A stretch of 64,000 nt of DNA from Candidatus Halobonum tyrrellensis G22 (GTDB lineage Archaea > Halobacteriota > Halobacteria > Halobacteriales > Haloferacaceae). A program made the translations under genes and the position numbers. Below are positions 20,879 to 34,171 of this stretch, one piece after another; the first letter of the stretch is position 1; the number at the start of each line of letters is the position of its first letter. The notes below the pieces were generated by a model. That model was not told where the DNA came from. It was given only the letters and a program-made list of their open reading frames with translations, and searched no databases. Location: the NCBI RefSeq assembly GCF_000495475.1, contig NZ_ASGZ01000005.1, forward strand, positions 124,001-188,000. The letters are read 5' to 3'.

Positions 20879-21118
20879 GTGAAAAGAAGTGCCCGTGAGG
20901 AGGTGTACTACGACACTCGGTGGTACACGAGCGGCGACGTCGAGATCCACCATCGAGAGAACTACACCGGGAGCCGCGAGTGGCCGCGGCGGTGGGACAA
21001 CCATTCCCGCGCACAACGCCCCACCGAACGGCCCGACTCGATCGGGATGCCAGCCGGTCGATTCGACGAACTCCTCGACGTACCCAGCCGGGTTCGGAGA
21101 CCAAACACTCTTGTTTAG
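20879..21118 (+). CDS. Doubtful 79-codon reading frame, possible gene fragment
   Basis: A GTG-initiated frame reads EEVYYDTRWYTSGDVEIHHR and later REWPRRWDNHSRAQRPTERP. The mixture of aromatic, acidic and His residues is more protein-like than nearby shadow frames, and the W-RWDNH part recalls the C-terminal segment of small haloarchaeal TumE-like (DUF6516) proteins. The frame runs into the iron box of the next gene and lacks a clear domain, so it is more likely a fragment than an intact gene. Low confidence. Confidence 0.25.
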   Translation: MKRSAREEVYYDTRWYTSGDVEIHHRENYTGSREWPRRWDNHSRAQRPTERPDSIGMPAGRFDELLDVPSRVRRPNTLV

Positions 21119-21128
21119 GCCGGCCAAA
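21114..21128 (+). promoter_or_regulatory. Iron-box-like operator before the GMC dehydrogenase genes
   Basis: TTTAGGCCGGCCAAA, one base shorter than the TTTAGGCNNGCCTAAA palindromes at 23.3 and 31.6 kb. It lies 14 nt before the small-subunit ATG, overlapping the expected transcription start. DtxR-family Idr repressors of haloarchaea bind palindromes of this kind when Fe(II) is plentiful. Confidence 0.55.
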
Positions 21129-21142
21129 TCGGCGTACAGCCG

Positions 21143-21670
21143 ATGGAACTGGACCGTCGCGACCTGCTCACGGCGCTGGCCGCTACCGGAGCAGGTTCGA
21201 CAGCCGGCTGCTCCAGTACTCGGAGACAGGCGACCGATGGAGGGGACGTTTCCGACCACGACGCCGACACGCTCGTCGCACTCGCCGAGGTCCTCTACCC
21301 GTCGTCGGTGAGCAACGTCGGGGAGTTCGTCCGCGAGTACTCGCTCGAACGGGTCGCTGCCGACGCGGAGTACGCCGCCGGGGTCGCGGAGGCGGTGGGG
21401 AGTCTCGACGAGTACGTCTCGGAGTGGCACGACGTTCCGTACGCCGAACTCCCGACCGTCGAACGCGGGGAGATCCTCCGTCACATGACGGTCGACACCG
21501 CCGACCCCGACCCCGACGGGGTCGCGCGCGAGCGGATCCGATACTACCTCGTGAACGAACTGCTCTACGCCTTCTACACGACGCCCACGGGGGCGGGGCT
21601 CGTCGGACTGGAGAACCCGCCCGGCCACCCCGGCGGGACACGGTCGTACCGTCGGGGGCCGGACTCGTGA
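21143..21670 (+). CDS. Gluconate 2-dehydrogenase subunit 3-like Tat lipoprotein
   Basis: A 175-residue protein. The start LDRRDLLTALAATGAGSTAGC is a Tat signal with lipobox (Cys about 24), so the mature protein is anchored outside. The rest matches the PF13618 pattern: early 'LVALAEVLYPS', central 'YAAGVAEAVGSLDEYV', and a C-terminal 'R.RYYLVNELLYAFYTTPTG..LVG...PP.HPGG'. This small subunit exports and supports a GMC-type large subunit in membrane sugar dehydrogenases. It overlaps the large-subunit gene by 4 bp (GTGA) and has an iron-box-like operator before it. Electrons would go to an outside acceptor; no cytochrome subunit is adjacent. Confidence 0.85.
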   Translation: MELDRRDLLTALAATGAGSTAGCSSTRRQATDGGDVSDHDADTLVALAEVLYPSSVSNVGEFVREYSLERVAADAEYAAGVAEAVGSLDEYVSEWHDVPYAELPTVERGEILRHMTVDTADPDPDGVARERIRYYLVNELLYAFYTTPTGAGLVGLENPPGHPGGTRSYRRGPDS

Positions 21671-23265
21671 ACGGGGGGGTCGACCGAACCCCCTCGGGCC
21701 GGGTCGACGCCTGCGTCGTCGGCGCCGGGCCCGCGGGTGCGCTCGTCGCCGCCGAACTCGCGTCGGCAGGGTACGACGTAGTCGTCCTCGACGCCGGGCC
21801 TCGGTTCGACCCCGCGGACCGCGAGGCACGGATGGAACGGCACCTCCGGCCCGGCGACCGCGAACCGGTGTGGGACATGGGCGGCGAACGCGACGCGTAC
21901 AGCGCGACCGGCGCGCGGGAGTATCCGCTCAACGCCGCGCGCGTGAAGGGGGTGGGCGGGAGCACGCTCCACTGGCAGGGCATGGTGATGCGCCTCCACG
22001 AGCAGGACTTCCGGCTCGACTCGGAGCTCGGGGTGGCGACCGACTGGCCGCTCTCGTACGACGACCTCAGACCGTACTACGCGGCCGCAGAGGAGGAGCT
22101 GTCGGTGGCGGGCGCGTCCGACAACCCGTTCGCGCCGCCGCGAGAGACCCCCCATCCGCTGCCGGCGTTCCCGCCCTCCTACAGCGACTCGCTGTTCGCC
22201 GAGGCGTGCGAGGAACTCGGGATCGCGACCCACTCGGTGCCGAACGCGCGCAACTCGGAGCCGACCGACGAGGGGGGAGCGTGCGTCGGCTACGGCACCT
22301 GCAAGCCGGTGTGTCCCTCCGGCGCGAAGTACGACGCCACCCGTCACGTCGCCCGCGCGGAGGCCGACGGCGCGCGCGTGGTCGACCGCGCGCCGGTTCA
22401 GCGACTCGTCCACGACGACGCCGGCGACCGAGTCACCGCCGCGGTGTACGCGACTCCCGACGGGACCGAACACCGCCAGGAGGCCCGGGAGTTCGTCGTC
22501 GCGGCCGGCGGGGTGGAGACGCCGCGGCTCCTGCTGCTCTCGAAGTCGGAGCGCTATCCCGACGGCCTCGCCAACTCCTCGGGGCTCGTGGGGCGGTACT
22601 TCACCGACCACCTGTTCGCCGGCGTCGGCGGCACACTCGACGAGCCGACCCGGCAGAAACACGTCGGATTCAACACGACCGAGAGCCACCAGTTCTACGA
22701 CCGTTCGGACGGCGCCCGGGGAGCGATCAAACTCGAGTTCCTCAACTACGCCGGCCCGGCTCCCGCGGACGTCGCAACGGGAGCGGAGACGTTCGGAGAC
22801 GACCTGCTCGCGGAGATACGCGGGGCGTACGGGAACCGGATCGCGGTCGGGGGGTTGGTCGAACAGTACCCCCGCGCGGAGAACCGGGTCCGACTCGACC
22901 CGTCCCGGACCGACGCCCACGGCAACCCCGTCCCGGACGTGGTGTGGAGCCTCGACCGGCGAACGAGAGCGACGATCGAACGCGCGAACGAGATCCAGCG
23001 GTCGATCCTCGAGGAGATGGGCACCGACGTCGACTGGACCGTCGGGCCGGAGAACACGGGGCCGGCGTTCCACCACATGGGGACGACCCGGATGGGGACC
23101 GACCCCGACGAGAGCGTCGTCGCGCCGACCCTCCGGACGCACGACCTGGCGAACCTCTCCGTGGTGGGTAGCTCCGCGTTCGTCACGGGCGGCGCGATGA
23201 ACCCCACGCTCACGATCGCGGCGCTCGCGCTGAAGGCGTCCGACCACGTCGCCGAACGCCTCTGA
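21667..23265 (+). CDS. GMC-family FAD oxidoreductase (sugar dehydrogenase large subunit)
   Basis: A 532-residue protein from the GTG at 21667, which overlaps the small-subunit stop; earlier in-frame codons are out of context. The FAD motif VVGAGPAGALVAAELASAG lies near residue 18, and GVGGSTLHWQGM (about 98) is the second GMC signature. GYGTCKPVCPSGAKYD (about 212-227) is the Cys-rich patch seen in gluconate/glucoside dehydrogenases. The catalytic C-terminal part is FHHMGTTRMG with VTGGAMNPTLTIAALALKAS. With subunit 3 it oxidises a sugar hydroxyl outside the membrane; close relatives include gluconate 2-dehydrogenase and glucoside 3-dehydrogenase. It lacks its own signal and would travel with the Tat partner. 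Iron-regulated by context (inferred). Confidence 0.92.
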   Translation: MNGGVDRTPSGRVDACVVGAGPAGALVAAELASAGYDVVVLDAGPRFDPADREARMERHLRPGDREPVWDMGGERDAYSATGAREYPLNAARVKGVGGSTLHWQGMVMRLHEQDFRLDSELGVATDWPLSYDDLRPYYAAAEEELSVAGASDNPFAPPRETPHPLPAFPPSYSDSLFAEACEELGIATHSVPNARNSEPTDEGGACVGYGTCKPVCPSGAKYDATRHVARAEADGARVVDRAPVQRLVHDDAGDRVTAAVYATPDGTEHRQEAREFVVAAGGVETPRLLLLSKSERYPDGLANSSGLVGRYFTDHLFAGVGGTLDEPTRQKHVGFNTTESHQFYDRSDGARGAIKLEFLNYAGPAPADVATGAETFGDDLLAEIRGAYGNRIAVGGLVEQYPRAENRVRLDPSRTDAHGNPVPDVVWSLDRRTRATIERANEIQRSILEEMGTDVDWTVGPENTGPAFHHMGTTRMGTDPDESVVAPTLRTHDLANLSVVGSSAFVTGGAMNPTLTIAALALKASDHVAERL

Positions 23266-23295: not shown

Positions 23296-23311
23296 TTTAG
23301 GATAGCCTAAA
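23296..23311 (+). promoter_or_regulatory. Iron-box-like operator of the Fe transporter operon
   Basis: TTTAGGATAGCCTAAA, a 16-bp palindrome with 6-bp perfect arms, 17 nt before the ATG at 23329. It closely resembles the operators at 31.6 kb and fits the recognition pattern of DtxR/Idr-type iron repressors. The Fe(III) importer encoded downstream supports this. Confidence 0.72.
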
Positions 23312-23328
23312 CGCAGACCGGCCAACGC

Positions 23329-24501
23329 ATGAACGCTCGCGCCAGTCACGATATCTGCGTCGTGGTCCCGACGGTTCGGAACCACGAGTGCGTCCGCGAG
23401 TACGTCGACAACGCCCGCGAACACGGGTTCGACGTCGACCGACTCTTCGTCGTCCTCGTCACCGAGGACTTCTGTGACGCCGACGCGATGGAGGGAACGC
23501 TCGCCGAGGCGGGGGTCGCCGGCGCCGTCTTCGACGCGAGCGCACGGCGGCGGTGGTTCGACGCACACGGCCTCTCGGCGTACGACCACCTCGTCCCCGC
23601 GGCGAGTCACGCACAGACCTCGTTCGGCCTGCTCTACCTCTGGGCGAACGAGCGGTTCGAGTACGGCGTCTTCCTCGACGACGACACCCGACCGCACCCC
23701 GGGACGGACTTCTTCGGGACCCACCTGTCGAACCTCCACCACGACGGCCCCGTCGAGACGGTCCGGACCGACAGTTCGTGGGTGAACGTGCTCTACCAGA
23801 CCGACGACGACCTCTACCCCCGAGGGTACCCGTACGGGGCGATGGACGAGACGGTCGAGACGACGACCGAACGCGTCGACTCCGTCGTCGCCTCCCAGGG
23901 GCTGTGGACCAACGTGCCCGACCTCGACGCGGTTCGAATCCTGATGGACGGCGACCTGCGGGGGCAGTCGCGAACGCGGACCGACGCCGACGACTTCGGC
24001 CGCGACTTCGTCGCCGCCGAGGGGGAGTACCTCACCGTCTGTTCGATGAACCTCGCGTTCCGCCGGGAGGTCGTCCCGGCGTTCTACCAGTTGCCGATGG
24101 ACGACAACGAGTGGGACGTCGGCCGGTTCGACGACATCTGGTCGGGGGTGTTCCTCAAGCGGGCGTGCGACGTGCTCGGCAAACGGGTGTACACCGGCGC
24201 GCCGCTGTGTCGACACGACAAGGCGCCACGGTCGACGTTCGACGACCTGACGAACGAGGTGGCGGGACTCGAACTCAACGAACACCTCTGGGAGGTCGTC
24301 GACGACACCGCCGGGGACGCCGACTCGTTCCGCGAGGCGTTCGCCGCCATGGCCGACACGCTTGCGGAGGGTGAGTTCGACGAGTTGAACAACGGCGGAT
24401 TCCTCAACCACTGCGGGGAGTACATGCGCGACTGGCTCGACTGCCTCGCCGACATCGACGCCGCGGAGATGGGGGCCGAGGCGGTGGTCGCGGATGACTG
24501 A
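23329..24501 (+). CDS. RGP / alpha-1,4-glucan-protein synthase-like glycosyltransferase
   Basis: A 390-residue soluble protein resembling the reversibly glycosylated polypeptide family (PF03214; plant members are UDP-arabinopyranose mutases). Seen: the opening ICVVVPTVRNHECVREYV (9-26), the sugar-nucleotide DxD-like motif FLDDDTRP (115-122), and the late segment SMNLAFRREVVPAFYQLPM followed by RFDDIWSGVFLKRACDVLG, which parallels 'N.CF.R...P..Y...M....YDD.W.G...K.ICD.L' of RGPs. It is the first gene after an iron box and overlaps the Fe-binding-protein gene by 8 bp, so its synthesis is tied to iron uptake. The product might be a sugar-nucleotide mutase or a transferase making a cell-surface or secreted glycan. 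Family call is fairly good; role in iron metabolism is inferred. Confidence 0.75.
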   Translation: MNARASHDICVVVPTVRNHECVREYVDNAREHGFDVDRLFVVLVTEDFCDADAMEGTLAEAGVAGAVFDASARRRWFDAHGLSAYDHLVPAASHAQTSFGLLYLWANERFEYGVFLDDDTRPHPGTDFFGTHLSNLHHDGPVETVRTDSSWVNVLYQTDDDLYPRGYPYGAMDETVETTTERVDSVVASQGLWTNVPDLDAVRILMDGDLRGQSRTRTDADDFGRDFVAAEGEYLTVCSMNLAFRREVVPAFYQLPMDDNEWDVGRFDDIWSGVFLKRACDVLGKRVYTGAPLCRHDKAPRSTFDDLTNEVAGLELNEHLWEVVDDTAGDADSFREAFAAMADTLAEGEFDELNNGGFLNHCGEYMRDWLDCLADIDAAEMGAEAVVADD

Positions 24502-25660
24502 CCCGACCGGCGACCGGCGGCGGTTCCTCGCGGCCGTCGGCGCCGCCGGGGCGGCGGGGCTGGCCGGCTGTAGTGGGTTCGGGGGCCTCGACGGCTCGGA
24601 CGCCGGCACCGACGCTGCGGCGAACGCGAGCGGGTCGACCGCCGGGTTCACCGAGTTCCGCGGCTCCGGCCCGCTCGCGGAGGGGCGCGGCGAGTTCGGC
24701 GGGACCCGGATCGCGGATCTGCCCGACCTGTCGGGCGAGTTGACGGTCTACCTCGGCGGCGGCGAGGGCGGACTCTACCGCGACCTCGTGTCGATCCTCC
24801 AGGAGATCTACCCCGACTTCCGGGTCAACCTCCGCGAGTCGGGCACCGCCGACGCGGCGAACACGATCATCGGCGAGGGGGAGGCGACGCCCGCCGACGT
24901 GTTCTGGTCGGTCGACGCCGGGTCGCTCGCGGCGGTCGCGAACGAGGGGCTGACCGCGACGCTCCCCGCGGCGGTGGTCGACCCAGTGCCCCAGACGTTC
25001 CACCCGGACGACGAGTGGGTCGGTGTCGCGGGGCGCGCGCGGTCGATCCCGTACAACACGGACGCGCTGTCGGCCGAGGGCGTCCCCGAGAGCGTGATGA
25101 CGATCCCCGACCGGCCGGACCTCGCGGGGTCGATGGGGTGGGCGCCGACGTACGGCGCGTTCCAGGCGTTCGTCACGGCGATGCGCATCCTCGAAGGCGA
25201 GGGGACAACCCGTGAGTGGCTCTCCGCGATGGTCGAAGCGGGCGTCACCGAGTACAGCAACGAGTTCCTCGTCTCGAACGCGGTGGCCGACGGCGAGATC
25301 GACGCCGGGTTCGCCAACCACTACTACGCGCTCCGCGTGCAGGCGTCCCGGCCCGACGCACCGGTCGACCTGGCGTTCACGAGCGGCGACGCGGGCGGGC
25401 TGATAAACGCCGCGGGCGCGGCCGTCCTCGCGCCGACCGACGCCCAGCAACTGGCCAACACGTTCGTCCGCCACCTGCTGTCGGCGGAGGCGCAGGAGTT
25501 CTTCGCCACCCGGACGTACGCGTACCCGATGGTCGAGGGGATCCCGCCGGTCGGCGGACTGCCCTCCATCGACGAGTTGAACCCGCCGGATATCGACCTC
25601 GGGCGACTGTCGAATCTCCAGCCGACGCTCGAACTCATGCGCGAGGTGGGCGTGCTCTGA
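24494..25660 (+). CDS. Fe(III)-type ABC substrate-binding lipoprotein (FbpA-like)
   Basis: A 388-residue protein with a Tat signal (DRRRFLAAVGAAGAAGLAGC, lipobox Cys about 27), a Gly/Ala/Asp linker and a class II binding fold starting GELTVYLGGGEGGLYRDLV. The sequence NHYYALR (about residues 275-281) contains the adjacent tyrosine pair that ligates Fe(III) in FbpA-type proteins. It overlaps the upstream RGP gene by 8 bp and the permease by one base (TGATG). It captures ferric iron or a ferric chelate outside the cell and delivers it to the permease. Substrate rests on family, tyrosines and iron box together. Confidence 0.9.
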   Translation: MTDPTGDRRRFLAAVGAAGAAGLAGCSGFGGLDGSDAGTDAAANASGSTAGFTEFRGSGPLAEGRGEFGGTRIADLPDLSGELTVYLGGGEGGLYRDLVSILQEIYPDFRVNLRESGTADAANTIIGEGEATPADVFWSVDAGSLAAVANEGLTATLPAAVVDPVPQTFHPDDEWVGVAGRARSIPYNTDALSAEGVPESVMTIPDRPDLAGSMGWAPTYGAFQAFVTAMRILEGEGTTREWLSAMVEAGVTEYSNEFLVSNAVADGEIDAGFANHYYALRVQASRPDAPVDLAFTSGDAGGLINAAGAAVLAPTDAQQLANTFVRHLLSAEAQEFFATRTYAYPMVEGIPPVGGLPSIDELNPPDIDLGRLSNLQPTLELMREVGVL

Positions 25661-27285
25661 TGTCCGCCGAGGAACCCGGCCGGGTGCGCGCCGCGGTCGG
25701 ACTCGGCGGCGACGACGGCGACGAGGTCGGCCCCGGCGTCGCCGCCCTCGCCGGCGCGGTGGCCGCCGCCGTGCTCTCGCCGCTCGCGTGGCTGCTGTTG
25801 CGTGCCACGGAGATCGACCCCGCGGCGGCGCTGTCGCTCGTCACCTCGCCGACGGCGACCGAGGTGCTCGCAAACAGCCTGCTGCTCGTCGGCGTGGTCA
25901 CGTCGGCGTCCGTCCTCCTCGGCGTCCCGCTGGCGGTGTTGACCGTCCAGACCGACCTCCCCTTCCGTCGGCTGTGGACGGTGCTCGTCGCCCTGCCGTT
26001 GGTCGTCCCGAGCTACATCGGGGCGTTCGCGTACGTCTCCGCGTTCGGACCCAACGGCGAACTCGCCGACCTCCTCGGGCCGTTCGGGGTGTCGGTGCCG
26101 ACGGTGTACGGCCTCCCGGGAACCGCGCTCGTGTTGACGCTGTTCGTCTACCCGTACGTGTTCCTCACGACGCGCGCGTCGCTGCTGTCGTTCGACGACA
26201 GCCAGTTGGAGGCCGCAAGAACCCTGAACGACGGCTACCTCGCCGCCTTCCGGCGGGTGATCCTCCCGCAGATAACCTCGGGCGTCACGGCGGGCGCGCT
26301 GTTGGTCGCACTCTACGTGCTCTCGGACTTCGGGACGCCGGCGATCATGCGCTTCGACGTGTTCACGCGGGTCATCTACGTCGAACTCAACAGCTTCGGC
26401 GTCGGGCGGGCGAACGCCACGCTCCTGTCGCTGGAACTCCTCGCGGTGACGGCGGTCGTGCTCGCGCTCGAGTCGCGGGTCGGCGGCGATGAGACCGCCG
26501 GGTACGGCACGCCCGCCTCCGCGACGCCCGTGGTCTCGCTCGGGCGGTACCGGTGGGTCGCGGCGGCACTCCCCGCGCTCGTGACGCTGTTCACGCTCGC
26601 GCTCCCGGTCGGCGTGCTCGCGATGTGGCTCGTCCGCTCGGGGCCGGGGTACGCCGGCGGCGGCCTCGCGTTCCGTCCGGCGTTCGCCGCCAACTCGGTG
26701 TACGTCGCCGCGGTCGCGGCGGGAGCGACGGTCGTGTTGGCGCTCCCGGTGGCGTACTACGCCGGCCGGTCGGACTCGTGGTTCGCTCGGGCGACCGAAC
26801 GGGCGACGTACCTCGGCTACGCGATGCCGGGCGTCGTCCTCGGGTTGGCGCTGGTCTTCTTCGGCATCCGGTACGCGCCGGCGCTCTACCAGACGCTCCC
26901 GCTGCTCGTCTTCGCGTACGTCGTCCGCTTTCTCCCGCAGGCGGTCGGCTCGACCCGCTCGTCGGTGCTCGGGGTCGACCGGCAACTCCTCGGCGCGGCG
27001 CGCGTCCTCGGGGCGTCCCGCCGGCGGACGTTCCGACGGGTGACGCTCCCGCTGGTCGCGCCGGGACTACTCGCGGGCGCGGCGCTCGTCTTCCTCACGA
27101 CGATGAAGGAACTCGACACGACGCTGATCCTCCATCCCACAGGGTTCACGACGCTCGTGACGTACATCTGGCGTGTACAGGAGGCCGGCTACTACGGGCG
27201 GGCGGCGCTCCCCGCGCTCGTGTTGGTCGTCGTGTCGGGGCTGTCGATGATCCCGCTGTTGCGTCAGGGGGGTGACGATGCGTAA
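25660..27285 (+). CDS. Fe(III)-type ABC permease (FbpB-like, fused two-domain)
   Basis: A 541-residue membrane protein with about twelve helices and two MetI-type halves. Each half has its own EAA loop: EAARTLNDGYLAAFRRVILP in the first and GAARVLGASRRRTFRRVTLP in the second. This duplicated architecture is typical of FbpB/AfuB/SfuB ferric importers. The ATG at 25660 shares one base with the stop of the binding-protein gene; longer frames extending upstream are out of register with that gene. It overlaps the ATPase gene by 8 bp. It forms the complete channel for the importer. Confidence 0.93.
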   Translation: MSAEEPGRVRAAVGLGGDDGDEVGPGVAALAGAVAAAVLSPLAWLLLRATEIDPAAALSLVTSPTATEVLANSLLLVGVVTSASVLLGVPLAVLTVQTDLPFRRLWTVLVALPLVVPSYIGAFAYVSAFGPNGELADLLGPFGVSVPTVYGLPGTALVLTLFVYPYVFLTTRASLLSFDDSQLEAARTLNDGYLAAFRRVILPQITSGVTAGALLVALYVLSDFGTPAIMRFDVFTRVIYVELNSFGVGRANATLLSLELLAVTAVVLALESRVGGDETAGYGTPASATPVVSLGRYRWVAAALPALVTLFTLALPVGVLAMWLVRSGPGYAGGGLAFRPAFAANSVYVAAVAAGATVVLALPVAYYAGRSDSWFARATERATYLGYAMPGVVLGLALVFFGIRYAPALYQTLPLLVFAYVVRFLPQAVGSTRSSVLGVDRQLLGAARVLGASRRRTFRRVTLPLVAPGLLAGAALVFLTTMKELDTTLILHPTGFTTLVTYIWRVQEAGYYGRAALPALVLVVVSGLSMIPLLRQGGDDA

Positions 27286-28402
27286 CGCGGGGTCCGAGGA
27301 GGCGACGCGGTCGCCCCCGCGGACCGACGACGACACCGGCGCCGAGACGGTGCTCGAACTCTCGGGGGTCCGGAAGGCGTACCGCTCGGAGACGGCGGTC
27401 TCGGGGGTCGACCTGGCGGTCGAGCGGGGCGAACTACTCACCCTGCTCGGGCCGTCGGGCTGCGGGAAGACGACGACTCTCCGGCTGATCGCGGGGCTCG
27501 ACGCGCCGACCGAGGGGACGGTGACCGTCGGCGGCGAGACGGTCGCGGGCGACGGGGCGGTCACCCCGCCGGAGGAGCGCGACGTGGGGATGGTGTTCCA
27601 GGAGTTCGCGCTGTTCCCTCACCTCACCGTAGCCGAGAACGTCGCGTTCGGACTCGACGACCTCGACGACGCGGCCACGGACGCGCGCGTGGACGAACTG
27701 CTCGACTTGGTCGGCCTCGCGGCGTACGGCGACCGGGCGCCGGGCGACCTCTCGGGCGGCCAGCGTCAGCGGGTCGCGCTCGCCCGCTCGCTCGCGCCCG
27801 AACCCGACGTGCTCCTCCTCGACGAACCGTTCTCGAACCTCGACGTCCGCCTCCGCGTCGAGATGCGCGAGGAGGTCAAGCGGATCCTCGACGAGGCGGG
27901 CGTCACCGCCGTCTCCGTCACCCACGACCAGGAGGAGGCGCTCTCCATCTCCGACCGGGTGGCGGTGATGCACGACGGCCGGATCGAACAGGTCGGCGCG
28001 CCCGGCGACGTGTTCGAACACCCCGAGTCGCGGTTCGTCGCCTCCTTCCTCGGGCAGGCCGACTTCCTGCCCGCCCGGGTCGGCGAGTCGGCCGTCGAGA
28101 CGCCGCTCGGGTCGTACGCCCGCGCCCGGCTGAAGGGGGTCACCGACGACTACCGCGGCGCCACGGTGGACGCGCTCGTCCGCCCGGACGACCTCCGGGC
28201 GACGCCGACGGCCGACGCGGACGCCGACGGCCGCGTCGTCGGTCGACGGTACGCCGGCCCCTCGTTCGTCTACCGGGTCGAACTTGCCGACGGAACCGTC
28301 GTGAGCTGCCTTCACAACCACACCGAGGAGTTCGCGGTCGGCACCCCCGTCACGGTCGAACTCGTCGCGGACCACCCGCTCGCGTGGTACCCCGACCGAT
28401 AG
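27278..28402 (+). CDS. Fe(III)-type ABC ATPase (FbpC-like)
   Basis: A 374-residue ATPase. Walker A is GPSGCGKTT, the signature LSGGQRQRVALARSL, Walker B VLLLDEPFSNLD and the H-loop VSVTHDQEEAL. About 130 further residues contain TOBE-like segments (VDALVRPDDLRATP). A GTG two codons upstream is also possible; the ATG is preferred because GGGGGGTGA ends 3 nt before it, a plausible Shine-Dalgarno within the permease gene. It overlaps the permease and touches the following glycosyltransferase gene. It powers the importer. Confidence 0.92.
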   Translation: MRNAGSEEATRSPPRTDDDTGAETVLELSGVRKAYRSETAVSGVDLAVERGELLTLLGPSGCGKTTTLRLIAGLDAPTEGTVTVGGETVAGDGAVTPPEERDVGMVFQEFALFPHLTVAENVAFGLDDLDDAATDARVDELLDLVGLAAYGDRAPGDLSGGQRQRVALARSLAPEPDVLLLDEPFSNLDVRLRVEMREEVKRILDEAGVTAVSVTHDQEEALSISDRVAVMHDGRIEQVGAPGDVFEHPESRFVASFLGQADFLPARVGESAVETPLGSYARARLKGVTDDYRGATVDALVRPDDLRATPTADADADGRVVGRRYAGPSFVYRVELADGTVVSCLHNHTEEFAVGTPVTVELVADHPLAWYPDR

Positions 28403-31197: not shown

Positions 31198-31614
31198 CGG
31201 CCGAGGGGTCGGGTCGGGTGCACTTGAGGGTTACAGACCGCACTCGCCATCGGCGGAGCTACTTCGCTCCCCCTCGCGGTGGGAACGGGACCGTCACGCT
31301 CGCCGGATCCGGTGAACGGACCGAAGCCCGTTCTCGTGGCTGTGGCCGCGACGGGCGTCGACTCGCTCACGAGGCTCCGCTCCGTTCGGAAGTCACCGGG
31401 TCACGCCCCCGAGACGGGTCGTGTCGGTCCCACCAGCGGTCGTTCGACAGCGGAGCCCGGTTCAACGAGACGGGGACGGTCGACCCGTCAGTCGGGGTGT
31501 CTCGGCGAACACCAGATCGTCCGGGTCCGTACCGAACGGTTTCGTTTCGGTCACCACACCGCTGACTGAACAACTTTATACACCACGGGCTGTCAGATCG
31601 AGGGAGCCGACGGC
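31198..31614. other. Non-coding region upstream of the cupredoxin gene
   Basis: No gene supported; the short frames here are Arg/Thr/Ser-rich. An ACTTTATAC box (about 31573-31581) lies 90 nt before the next ATG and could be its promoter or an upstream one. It ends in a pair of iron-box-like operators. Confidence 0.4.
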
Positions 31615-31629
31615 TTTGGCCGACCTAAA
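31615..31629 (+). promoter_or_regulatory. Iron-box-like operator, weaker upstream copy
   Basis: TTTGGCCGACCTAAA, a diverged form of the palindrome 20 bp upstream of the near-perfect one. Tandem boxes are common at strongly regulated iron genes. Confidence 0.45.
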
Positions 31630-31648
31630 ATCGGAACTGTTATGGATA

Positions 31649-31664
31649 TTTAGGCTGGCCTAAA
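31649..31664 (+). promoter_or_regulatory. Iron-box-like operator of the cupredoxin gene
   Basis: TTTAGGCTGGCCTAAA, perfect 7-bp arms around TG, ending 5 nt before the ATG at 31670. It is the clearest of the four boxes. So close to the start, a bound repressor would cover the transcription start of a leaderless mRNA. Confidence 0.75.
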
Positions 31665-31669
31665 GACAG

Positions 31670-34171
31670 ATGCAGCAAACCAGACGCAACCTGCTGTCGA
31701 CGAGTGCAGCGGCCATCGCGGCCGGTCTCGCCGGTTGCAACGCGGTGGGCGAAGACAGTGGCACCGACGGCAACGCCAGCACGGGGTCCGGGGAGTCGAC
31801 CGGGACACCGACTGCGGACCCGACTGATACGGAGCCCGCTTCCGTCGACGTCTCCGCGGAGACGGCTCTCGCCGCCGAGTGGAACGTCATGCGGGCACGA
31901 CTCCACGACGCGGTGACCCTCGGTCGGATCGGTCAGAACGCCGCGGCGGCGTCGCTGGTCGGAGACGTCTTCGCACGCTTCGAACGGGCCACGGGGGAGT
32001 TCGGCGCCCACGAAGGGCTCGAAGCCACCAGCGAGGAACTGTACGAATCCTTCGAAGGGAACCTCGAAACGGCGCGTTCGGCGTTCGAGGAGGGAGCAAC
32101 CGACGAAGCGATCGGGGCCATCGACGGTGCAGGGGACGACCTACTGGCCGCCCAGCAGGAGCGAACCTCCGACGCCGTCGCGGACGCGTTCACGCTGTTC
32201 GTCGTCGGCTCGCGGGTGCGGAATATCGACGCCGTTGCGGCCGCCGGCGCGACGGACGCGGCGGCGACCGTCGGCGAGCGCGTCGTCGCCGATTTCGAGC
32301 GGATTCCCGCCCACGACACGCTCGAATCCGCGGGTGAGGAGAACTACGAAGCGTTCGAAGGGGCGCTCGGCGACGCCGTCGAGGCGGCGAACTCCGGCGA
32401 CGCCGCCGCCGTGCACGAGGCGGCGCTCTCCTCGAGTTCGGCGATCGTGGGTGCCGCCTACGAACTCGTCCCCGAGGCGGTCGCGGGCGTCGGTCACCTC
32501 TCGCTGATGGGGGCCGTCGGCTTCGACGCGGAGATGGCCGGCAACGTGGGTGGACCCGGTCTCGGCCTCGCACACGCGGCCGGTCTCGACGGCTACCGGG
32601 CTCGCGTTCGGGACGCCGCGTGGCTCTACGAAGCCGGAGATACCGAGGCCGCGAAAGCTGCCGCGCAGTCGATCTTCCAGCACTTCGAGGGCGCTCGGGC
32701 CCACGAAGCCCTCGAAGAGGCCGACCACGACGCCTACGAAACCTTCGAGCACGAGGGGCTGGAGTCGCTCGTCTCGGCCATCGAGAACGGGGACGACGCG
32801 GCCGTCGACGACGCGGTGACGGCCGTCCACGACGGTCTCACCTCGGGGATCGACACCCTGGCTGGCGAGGACGCGCCCGTCCTCGAATCGGGGTTCTTCC
32901 GCGCCCGTCTCGGCGACGCCCGCGAGCGCTACGGTCGGGGCGAGCGCGAGGTGGCCGCGACGACAGCGGAGAGCCTCTTCGCTCGCTTCGAGCAGAACGA
33001 GGCGGAGTTCCACGAGACGCTCGAATCGACGAGCGAGGACCTCTATCACTCCTTCGAGGAGGAACACCTGACCGCTCTCCCCGACGCCTTCCGGGCGGGC
33101 GACGACGAAGCCGTCGACACGCATCTCACCGGCGCGATGGACACCCTCGTCGAGTTCGAGGCGACCGCCGGGTCGACGCCGGTCGCGAGCGCCGCGGCGG
33201 CGACCTACATGACCGGTCGGGCCTGCGACGCGGGCGTCCTCGCGACGCTCGGTTCGACCGACCGGGCCGAGACGGTCGCGAGTGATGCCTTCGCCTACTT
33301 CGAAGCCGGTGCCAACGGCTTCCACGAGGCGGTCGAATCCGCCAGCGAGGACCGGTATCACGCCTTCGAGGAGGCGCTCGGGAGCGTGCGCACCGCCGCG
33401 ACGGGCGACGCCGACGCCTACGACGCCGCGACGACGTTCGCGGACGAGGCGACCGCCGCGGTCTACGCTGTCGTCGAGAGTGGGGGGTCCGCCGGTACCA
33501 ACTCCGGCGACGCCGGCATCGGCCTCTCGACGCTCGTGAGCGACGTGTTCGCCACCTTCGAGAACGCGCGTGTCCACGAGATACTCGAAGAGGGGGACCA
33601 CGAGGCCTACGAGACGTTCGAGAGCGCGCTCTCGGACTACGTCTCCGCGCTCGACGGTGGCGAGGGCGTCGACACCGCGACGGAGCGGTTCGCCCAAGCG
33701 ACCCGGAACGCGGCGTTCGCGGTCGCCGGGGCCATCGACGAGGCCCCCGAAATCTCCGGCGGCGAGAGTGGGGGCGAGAACGGTGGCGGCGGGGAGAGCG
33801 ACCTACAGGGTGGCCCGAACGTGGTCGAAGGCGTGCCGGAGGACGCCGACCACGTCGTCACCATGAACGCCGTCTCGTACGACCCCGTCGAACTGACTGT
33901 CTCGGCCGGGGACACGGTCGCCTGGGAGTGGGCCGCCGGCGAGGGGCACACTGTCACCGCCTACGAGGCGGAGATGCCGGACGGAGCGACCTACTGGGCC
34001 TCCGGTGGCTTCGAATCCGAGGAGGCGGCCAGAAGCGGCTGGGAGAACGGCGAGGGTGTCGTCCAGTCGGGACAGTCGTACGTTCACACGTTCGAGACGA
34101 CCGGCACACACGAGTACTTCTGCGTCCCTCACGAGGCCGCTGGAATGACCGGAACTGTGACCGTCGAATAG
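31670..34171 (+). CDS. Repeat-cupredoxin Tat lipoprotein (DUF5059-like)
   Basis: An 833-residue surface protein. The Tat signal TRRNLLSTSAAAIAAGLAGC gives a lipid anchor at about Cys23. A Thr/Ser/Asp linker follows, then about six helical repeats of roughly 95-120 residues sharing the pattern F..FE......HE.LE.....Y..FE (for example VFARFERATGEFGAHEGLEA, LFARFEQNEAEFHETLESTS, VFATFENARVHEILEEGDHE). These resemble the haloarchaeal DUF5059 module. The last 110 residues form a plastocyanin/halocyanin domain with a complete type 1 copper set: His760, Cys818, His821, Met826. Two iron boxes precede it. EfeO and P19-type iron-uptake proteins also combine cupredoxin-like domains with helical parts, so a role in periplasmic-side iron oxidation or delivery is plausible but unproven. 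Confidence 0.85.
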   Translation: MQQTRRNLLSTSAAAIAAGLAGCNAVGEDSGTDGNASTGSGESTGTPTADPTDTEPASVDVSAETALAAEWNVMRARLHDAVTLGRIGQNAAAASLVGDVFARFERATGEFGAHEGLEATSEELYESFEGNLETARSAFEEGATDEAIGAIDGAGDDLLAAQQERTSDAVADAFTLFVVGSRVRNIDAVAAAGATDAAATVGERVVADFERIPAHDTLESAGEENYEAFEGALGDAVEAANSGDAAAVHEAALSSSSAIVGAAYELVPEAVAGVGHLSLMGAVGFDAEMAGNVGGPGLGLAHAAGLDGYRARVRDAAWLYEAGDTEAAKAAAQSIFQHFEGARAHEALEEADHDAYETFEHEGLESLVSAIENGDDAAVDDAVTAVHDGLTSGIDTLAGEDAPVLESGFFRARLGDARERYGRGEREVAATTAESLFARFEQNEAEFHETLESTSEDLYHSFEEEHLTALPDAFRAGDDEAVDTHLTGAMDTLVEFEATAGSTPVASAAAATYMTGRACDAGVLATLGSTDRAETVASDAFAYFEAGANGFHEAVESASEDRYHAFEEALGSVRTAATGDADAYDAATTFADEATAAVYAVVESGGSAGTNSGDAGIGLSTLVSDVFATFENARVHEILEEGDHEAYETFESALSDYVSALDGGEGVDTATERFAQATRNAAFAVAGAIDEAPEISGGESGGENGGGGESDLQGGPNVVEGVPEDADHVVTMNAVSYDPVELTVSAGDTVAWEWAAGEGHTVTAYEAEMPDGATYWASGGFESEEAARSGWENGEGVVQSGQSYVHTFETTGTHEYFCVPHEAAGMTGTVTVE

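Follow-up and report, generated by a model that had tools for sequence, protein, structure and literature searches.

A haloarchaeal DUF5059 lipoprotein with helical repeats and a type 1 copper domain as a candidate surface protein of iron starvation

We propose that the DUF5059 gene in the 64,000-nt stretch of haloarchaeal DNA analysed here (the window) encodes a surface protein that is induced by iron starvation and serves iron acquisition, its helical bundles binding iron, its copper domain moving one electron and ABC importers taking the iron. Our confidence in this reading comes close to even but falls a little below it. Among the evidence for it are a repeated cluster of conserved His, Glu and Tyr residues, an intact type 1 copper site and a pair of iron boxes that accompanies the gene across its family. 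Judged from its sequence, the gene is a member of the catalogued DUF5059 halocyanin-domain family, part of whose regulation can already be read from published tables. Where the literature names DUF5059 proteins it labels them as halocyanin or as a domain of unknown function; in the literature searched we found neither a function nor metal binding ascribed to the family, and a prior listing in an iron regulon is possible.

The question is of interest for several reasons. Haloarchaeal iron uptake is largely open, EfeUO is absent, and the gene behind the iron uptake measured in Halobacterium is unidentified (PMC11349517). Members of the family can be tested in model strains, that is, in Haloferax volcanii (HVO_1228) and in Halobacterium salinarum. 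If the repeats do bind iron, they would represent a new type of iron site and a new link of copper redox chemistry to iron capture.

Domain plan, helical repeats and copper site

The gene is real (table 1), and the N-terminus of its product, MQQTRRNLL...GLAGC23, is of the Tat/lipobox type, with like starts in 81 of 82 unique homologues. The DUF5059 profile (PF16502) is matched over its entire length (model positions 1-619 of 619, E 5.6e-227, 755.8 bits against a gathering cut-off of 25), and residues 730-833 match Copper-bind (PF00127; E 2.8e-16, 60.2 bits, cut-off 21.2). The open reading frame, the lipobox and the Pfam domains together bear out the large lipoprotein of repeats joined to a cupredoxin that had been predicted from the letters of the window. 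Its closest named homologue in our collection is that of Haloplanus ruber (70% by tblastn, 75% in the alignment). The same domain plan is found in the family members HVO_1228 of H. volcanii (hcpE in PMC9051519) and HFX_RS06015 of H. mediterranei (hcpG in PMC9240420), from which the window protein has no essential difference.

Table 1. Features of the DUF5059 gene, its product and the boxed operon nearby (window positions)
Feature	Position	Strand	Basis
Second perfect iron box of the window, before transporter operon	23296..23311	+	box scan
Boxed neighbouring operon: RGP-like glycosyltransferase, ABC substrate-binding protein (SBP_bac_6/8), permease, ATPase; putative iron substrate from family and box	23329..28402	+	profiles
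Distal DtxR-type iron box CTTTGGCCGACCTAAA, 2 mismatches, -56 from ATG	31614..31629	+	box scan
Putative BRE/TATA-like core promoter between boxes	31630..31648	+	sequence
Proximal DtxR-type iron box TTTAGGCTGGCCTAAA, perfect, -21 from ATG	31649..31664	+	box scan
DUF5059-cupredoxin Tat lipoprotein, 833 aa	31670..34171	+	ORF and Pfam profiles
Tat signal with lipobox GLAGC, predicted lipidated Cys23	31670..31738	+	sequence; homologues
DUF5059 domain, residues 66-693	31865..33748	+	Pfam
Repeat 1 motif, residues 94-136: E105, H114, E118, Y125, E129	31949..32077	+	alignment, profile, regex
Repeat 2 motif, residues 199-237: E210, H215, E219, Y226, E230; intact here, decayed in some lineages	32264..32380	+	regex, lineage comparison
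Orphan helix A, residues 269-291, conserved D286	32474..32542	+	paralogue alignment, model
Repeat 3 motif, residues 329-367: E340, H345, E349, Y356, E360	32654..32770	+	alignment, profile, regex
Repeat 4 motif, residues 430-472: E441, H448, E452, Y459, E463	32957..33085	+	alignment, profile, regex
Repeat 5 motif, residues 534-575: E545, H552, E556, Y563, E567	33269..33394	+	alignment, profile, regex
Repeat 6 motif, residues 620-659: E631, H636, E640, Y647, E651	33527..33646	+	alignment, profile, regex
Flexible Gly/Glu-rich linker, residues 698-712	33761..33805	+	low pLDDT
Plastocyanin-type cupredoxin, residues 728-833; Cu ligands H760, C818, H821, M826	33851..34168	+	Pfam, alignment, structure comparison

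The original prediction counted about six helical repeats, and both a profile derived from the units and a motif regex (FE.{3,9}H...E.{6}Y..[FYL]E, with the core form FE..H...E......Y..FE) give exactly six in the window protein, the regex as against a mean of 0.0 matches in 100 shuffles of each protein. The extent of the repeat needs to be redrawn, for the motif that had been noticed covers only about one third of each unit, which is a four-helix bundle of about 100 residues. Across 82 homologues the unit profile finds six units in 63 and five in ten more, and three units in the paralogues L093-L098.

Conserved acidic and His residues had been predicted in each repeat. In units 1, 3, 4, 5 and 6 none of the 54 aligned homologues departs from the Glu of FE, the His, the Glu four residues on, the Tyr or the final Glu, and the window protein keeps the motif whole in each of its six units. 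Thus, the mapping of conserved residues, which had been set beforehand as a test that could refute the prediction, found residues of ligand type to be conserved. Furthermore, a helix-A Asp is near-invariant at five places (53 or 54 of 54). The helix-A Arg is near-invariant too, and the bundle of repeat 4 also holds the conserved residues H466, H485 and D416.

Unit 2 behaves differently across the homologues. Its His alone was lost several times, and its His, Glu, Tyr and Glu were lost jointly in two separate lineages in which both Phe residues are mostly kept. Such joint loss is the pattern expected if these four residues formed one functional site, and it is suggestive: Fisher P values for the co-loss reach 3e-9, but on the tree the co-loss comes down to two full losses, a number too small to yield significance. 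Where the other four residues of the motif are lost its first Glu persists, and therefore not all of the conserved residues need be ligands. We lean slightly towards the repeat motif binding a metal, and we regard the chance that this metal is iron as evenly balanced.

The structure prediction that had been suggested as a check was run and gave confident four-helix bundles. An AlphaFold2 model of residues 60-833, made with 54 homologues, has a mean pLDDT of 92.8, with low confidence limited to one short loop and to the linker (about residues 698-709) that leads to the copper domain. Given the low pLDDT of this linker, the copper domain is probably flexibly tethered. A second model, of two units (residues 397-606; pLDDT 96.1, pTM 0.91), shows one four-helix unit following another, and in both the His and Glu sit on a short additional helix. 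Among the Foldseek matches of two units none is significant (the best is alpha-catenin, at E 0.31), and matches to the full model, by Foldseek or VIA, were dominated by plastocyanin. With VIA-align, single units match PsbQ, designed bundles, cytochrome c' and SmbP with a best Z of 12.4, a value that is usual for helical bundles and under the level of kinship, so that these matches prove nothing. The repeat profile found chance matches only among PDB sequences.

The copper domain had been predicted to be a cupredoxin with its four ligands (table 1) intact, and the alignment and the fold agree: the ligands are invariant in 54 of 54 aligned homologues, and the predicted domain superposes on plastocyanin 2plt with a Z of 15.0 and an rmsd of 1.0 over 91 residues. 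By fold and ligand set it is a predicted type 1 copper protein of the plastocyanin/azurin family (PF00127). E758, E809, H814 and E822, which lie near the ligands in the sequence, are almost invariant as well; in the small halocyanins seen, the position of H814 is Tyr or Phe, and therefore H814 may be a hallmark of the DUF5059 copper domain. The axial Met is replaced in four of the six three-unit paralogues, by Gln in L095 and L098 and by His in L093 and L097, which should alter the redox potential. The window protein shares with plastocyanin and with the halocyanins (TIGR03102) the cupredoxin fold, the H-C-H-M ligands and the nature of a Tat lipoprotein. It differs from halocyanins, however, in its large extra helical domain and in the insertion YWASGGFES...GWENG, and its score against the TIGR03102 profile (43.1 bits) is below the cut-off of 93.8.

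Iron boxes and published expression

The two iron boxes that the original prediction placed before the gene are indeed present, one of them perfect with respect to the palindromic DtxR-type consensus TTTAGGNNNNCCTAAA (table 1). The window holds five box sites at two or fewer mismatches, as against 0.10 expected. Perfect boxes number only four in the 3.7-Mb genome, and a reversed control pattern gives none: two lie in a siderophore-type binding-protein/transporter cluster, one at window position 23296, before the neighbouring operon with its Fe3+-type ABC transporter, and one at the DUF5059 gene. When one mismatch is allowed there are 13 sites, six of them in the siderophore-type cluster, one member of which has a match to Peripla_BP_2 that falls short of the curated cut-off (E 9.2e-5), its other members being assigned by reading the sequence.

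Two further loci of the window deserve mention. At 23296-24501 the perfect box is followed first by the RGP-like glycosyltransferase (PF03214), which is odd for an iron operon. At 21114-23262 a box-like site with two mismatches is followed by genes for a lipoprotein resembling gluconate-2-dehydrogenase subunit 3 and for a GMC oxidoreductase; the two may be a further redox pair under iron control.

The paired boxes are a property of the family. With a threshold of at least 10 of 12 half-site matches, the proximal box occurs in 81, the distal box in 76 and both in 75 of the 82 unique homologues. The spacing of the two is 33-37 bp throughout, and between them lies a core promoter that resembles TCGAA...TTTAT; the best score in a control stretch is 7 of 12. 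The sole homologue that fails at the proximal box is the broken short copy of Natrinema gelatinilyticum, a two-unit remnant with a decayed promoter box. The six three-unit paralogues likewise carry a perfect proximal box. The DUF5059 gene of Natrinema hispanicum (L044) is surrounded by FecCD and Peripla_BP_2 genes that have boxes, and that of Halobellus clavatus (L055) has a boxed Peripla_BP_2 gene nearby.

Boxes were also seen at other genes. Perfect ones adjoin DUF7551/DUF7552 proteins at G000:C2:54072 (L117:14073) and L034:712, the protein of L034 being fused to PAS and histidine kinase domains; these proteins are possible iron-linked regulators. A boxed CARDB protein (L044:1316-2527, L048:15352-16563) may resemble HVO_A0466, whose partner HVO_A0467 is an RND permease of iron starvation. 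Several Haloarcula loci, among them L053:12516, L054:12517 and L071:12527, have a perfect box about 50 bp past the DUF5059 stop, with no obvious gene start nearby.

Published data on HVO_1228 bear on whether expression follows iron. In a splicing-endonuclease knock-down of H. volcanii it rises along with iucA, iucB, iucD and iron-binding proteins, by 4.2 log2 units (PMC7714728), and in a cas1/fen1 deletion it changes by -2.92 together with iucA, bdb, dat and an iron-binding protein (PMC9051519); its behaviour is not discussed in the accessible part of either article. Together with the boxes, this co-variation with siderophore genes strongly supports DtxR-type iron control of the DUF5059 gene. 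The predicted response to iron thus has the double box and two data sets on its side, and against it stands the absence of HVO_1228 from the proteins changed 10-fold or more under iron starvation in the available portion of a proteome study (PMC11349517). IucA/IucC is absent from the genome of the window and from many other genomes that carry DUF5059, and therefore the protein is independent of that type of home-made siderophore.

Proposed function and competing explanations

Under the proposed mechanism, a DtxR-family repressor would leave both boxes straddling the core promoter when iron is scarce, and the gene would then be expressed. The protein would exit by the Tat route and, as its signal suggests, be held to the outer face of the membrane by the lipid on Cys23. 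In each four-helix bundle the His/Glu/Tyr/Glu cluster (HxxxE followed by Y..FE), with the Glu that precedes it, would bind iron, giving up to six sites. The copper domain on its linker would exchange one electron with the bound iron or with a chelate of iron; in capture it would oxidise Fe(II), or in release reduce Fe(III), and the iron would be passed on to the co-regulated ABC importers. By a separate design, the protein would thus fill a role comparable to that of EfeO or P19, and this in archaea with neither EfeU nor EfeO. We advance the coupling of copper redox to iron capture tentatively, at somewhat below even confidence. More doubtful still is the broader claim that DUF5059 constitutes a novel class of multi-iron proteins outside the cell. 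On this view up to six bundles in a lipid-anchored chain would each hold an iron site of a new His/Glu/Tyr/Glu type and be electrically connected to the tethered blue-copper domain, and the protein would stand in haloarchaea where EfeO/P19 stands elsewhere.

The main rival, which we nevertheless consider unlikely, is a copper electron carrier made to spare iron: a respiratory carrier synthesised at low iron in place of iron-rich carriers, in which the helical array would be a spacer or docking scaffold that holds no iron. In its favour are the type 1 site, intact in nearly all full-length forms, the small halocyanins with the same insertion in the same genomes and the drop of respiratory iron proteins under iron starvation that a Haloferax study reports (PMC11349517). 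Yet a spacer needs no invariant Glu/His/Glu/Tyr/Glu in each unit, and haloarchaeal halocyanins already carry electrons without such a helical domain.

A somewhat less probable alternative is a reductase or receptor for ferric siderophores or chelates, whose bundles would hold the iron chelate and whose copper domain would reduce it before ABC importers receive the iron. The boxed FecCD and Peripla_BP_2 genes in the regulon, sometimes in the neighbourhood, would fit this function, as would the co-expression with siderophore genes in the two expression studies and a weak co-occurrence with IucA/IucC (31 of 76 carriers of DUF5059 against 45 of 216 other genomes, a comparison that ignores ancestry). 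However, many carriers, including the genome of the window, have no IucA/IucC, and small sites repeated six times are better suited to ions than to chelates. The potential of type 1 copper is usually high, a poor property for the reduction of strong ferric chelates, and so argues against such a reductase.

Two further explanations are improbable, and equally so. The array could be a metal buffer or protectant that sequesters copper, zinc or iron at the surface, limiting mis-metallation or Fenton damage; there are several sites per chain, and one bundle resembles the small metal-binding protein SmbP in fold, though SmbP is just one of numerous generic bundles that it resembles. A gene repressed through an iron-type box is expected to be switched on at low iron, which is the wrong time for an iron buffer. 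Alternatively, the conserved residues could be structural, as buried salt bridges or caps, and the array mechanical or protein-binding in the manner of catenin/vinculin-type bundles. Two units find their closest folds, without significance, in alpha-catenin, PsbQ and vinculin, and the near-invariance of the helix-A Arg and Asp is in keeping with this idea; His, two Glu and Tyr at fixed spacing, lost jointly where Phe stays, would be unusual for mere packing.

Returning to iron acquisition, the window protein recalls the cupredoxin-fold proteins P19/FtrB by analogy. We know of no helical repeat array in these cupredoxin-type proteins, and their FTR1-type permease partner (EfeU family) is absent from all 292 haloarchaeal genomes in a search whose controls worked. 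EfeO of the EfeUOB system is likewise iron-regulated and extracytoplasmic and combines helical bundles that have a His/Glu motif with a cupredoxin. In EfeO, however, the cupredoxin is N-terminal and the imelysin domain consists of two bundles with GxHxxE at their interface (PMC3143127, PMC9174327), whereas the window protein has a C-terminal cupredoxin and up to six bundles, each with its own HxxxE then Y..FE motif in place of GxHxxE. The M75 profile (PF09375) has no match in the window protein at E 1 or below and none in the 292 haloarchaeal genomes, carriers of DUF5059 included, again with working controls. Thus, the original suggestion of an EfeO or P19 logic in another architecture is apt as an analogy, to which neither an M75 sequence match nor a significant fold match nor any haloarchaeal M75 or FTR1 adds kinship; the protein is EfeO-like in logic and may work alike. 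That DUF5059 is a highly diverged EfeO/imelysin (M75) repeat protein is very improbable: both are four-helix-bundle proteins with a His/Glu motif and links to a cupredoxin and iron control, and the EfeO-like Algp7 (5y4c) is in the Foldseek list for two units (E 2.0, TM 0.30, not significant), but the blank M75 searches, the placement of the motif inside each unit and the reversed domain order speak against descent from M75.

Distribution of the family and growth of the array

At E 0.001, DUF5059 is found in 77 of 292 haloarchaeal genomes, about a quarter of those sampled, and all nine matches among 247 genomes of the phylum fall in the order of the window organism. Some copies (L085, L086 and L092) are apparently broken, with frame changes in Haloferax massiliensis and in a Halobacteriales MAG and with the remnant in N. 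gelatinilyticum. Beyond close relatives, we found no conserved gene partner adjoining the DUF5059 gene across the family; the three-unit paralogues have a small halocyanin and a THI4-like gene in their vicinity, an association of little weight.

These paralogues fit the six-unit profile up to the orphan helix (residues 269-291) and then again from just before helix B of unit 6. Therefore, the six-unit form corresponds to the three-unit form with a three-unit block placed between helices A and B of the last bundle; alternatively, the three-unit form would have arisen by deletion of that block. The orphan helix is probably helix A of the last bundle, parted from its partners by the inserted block.
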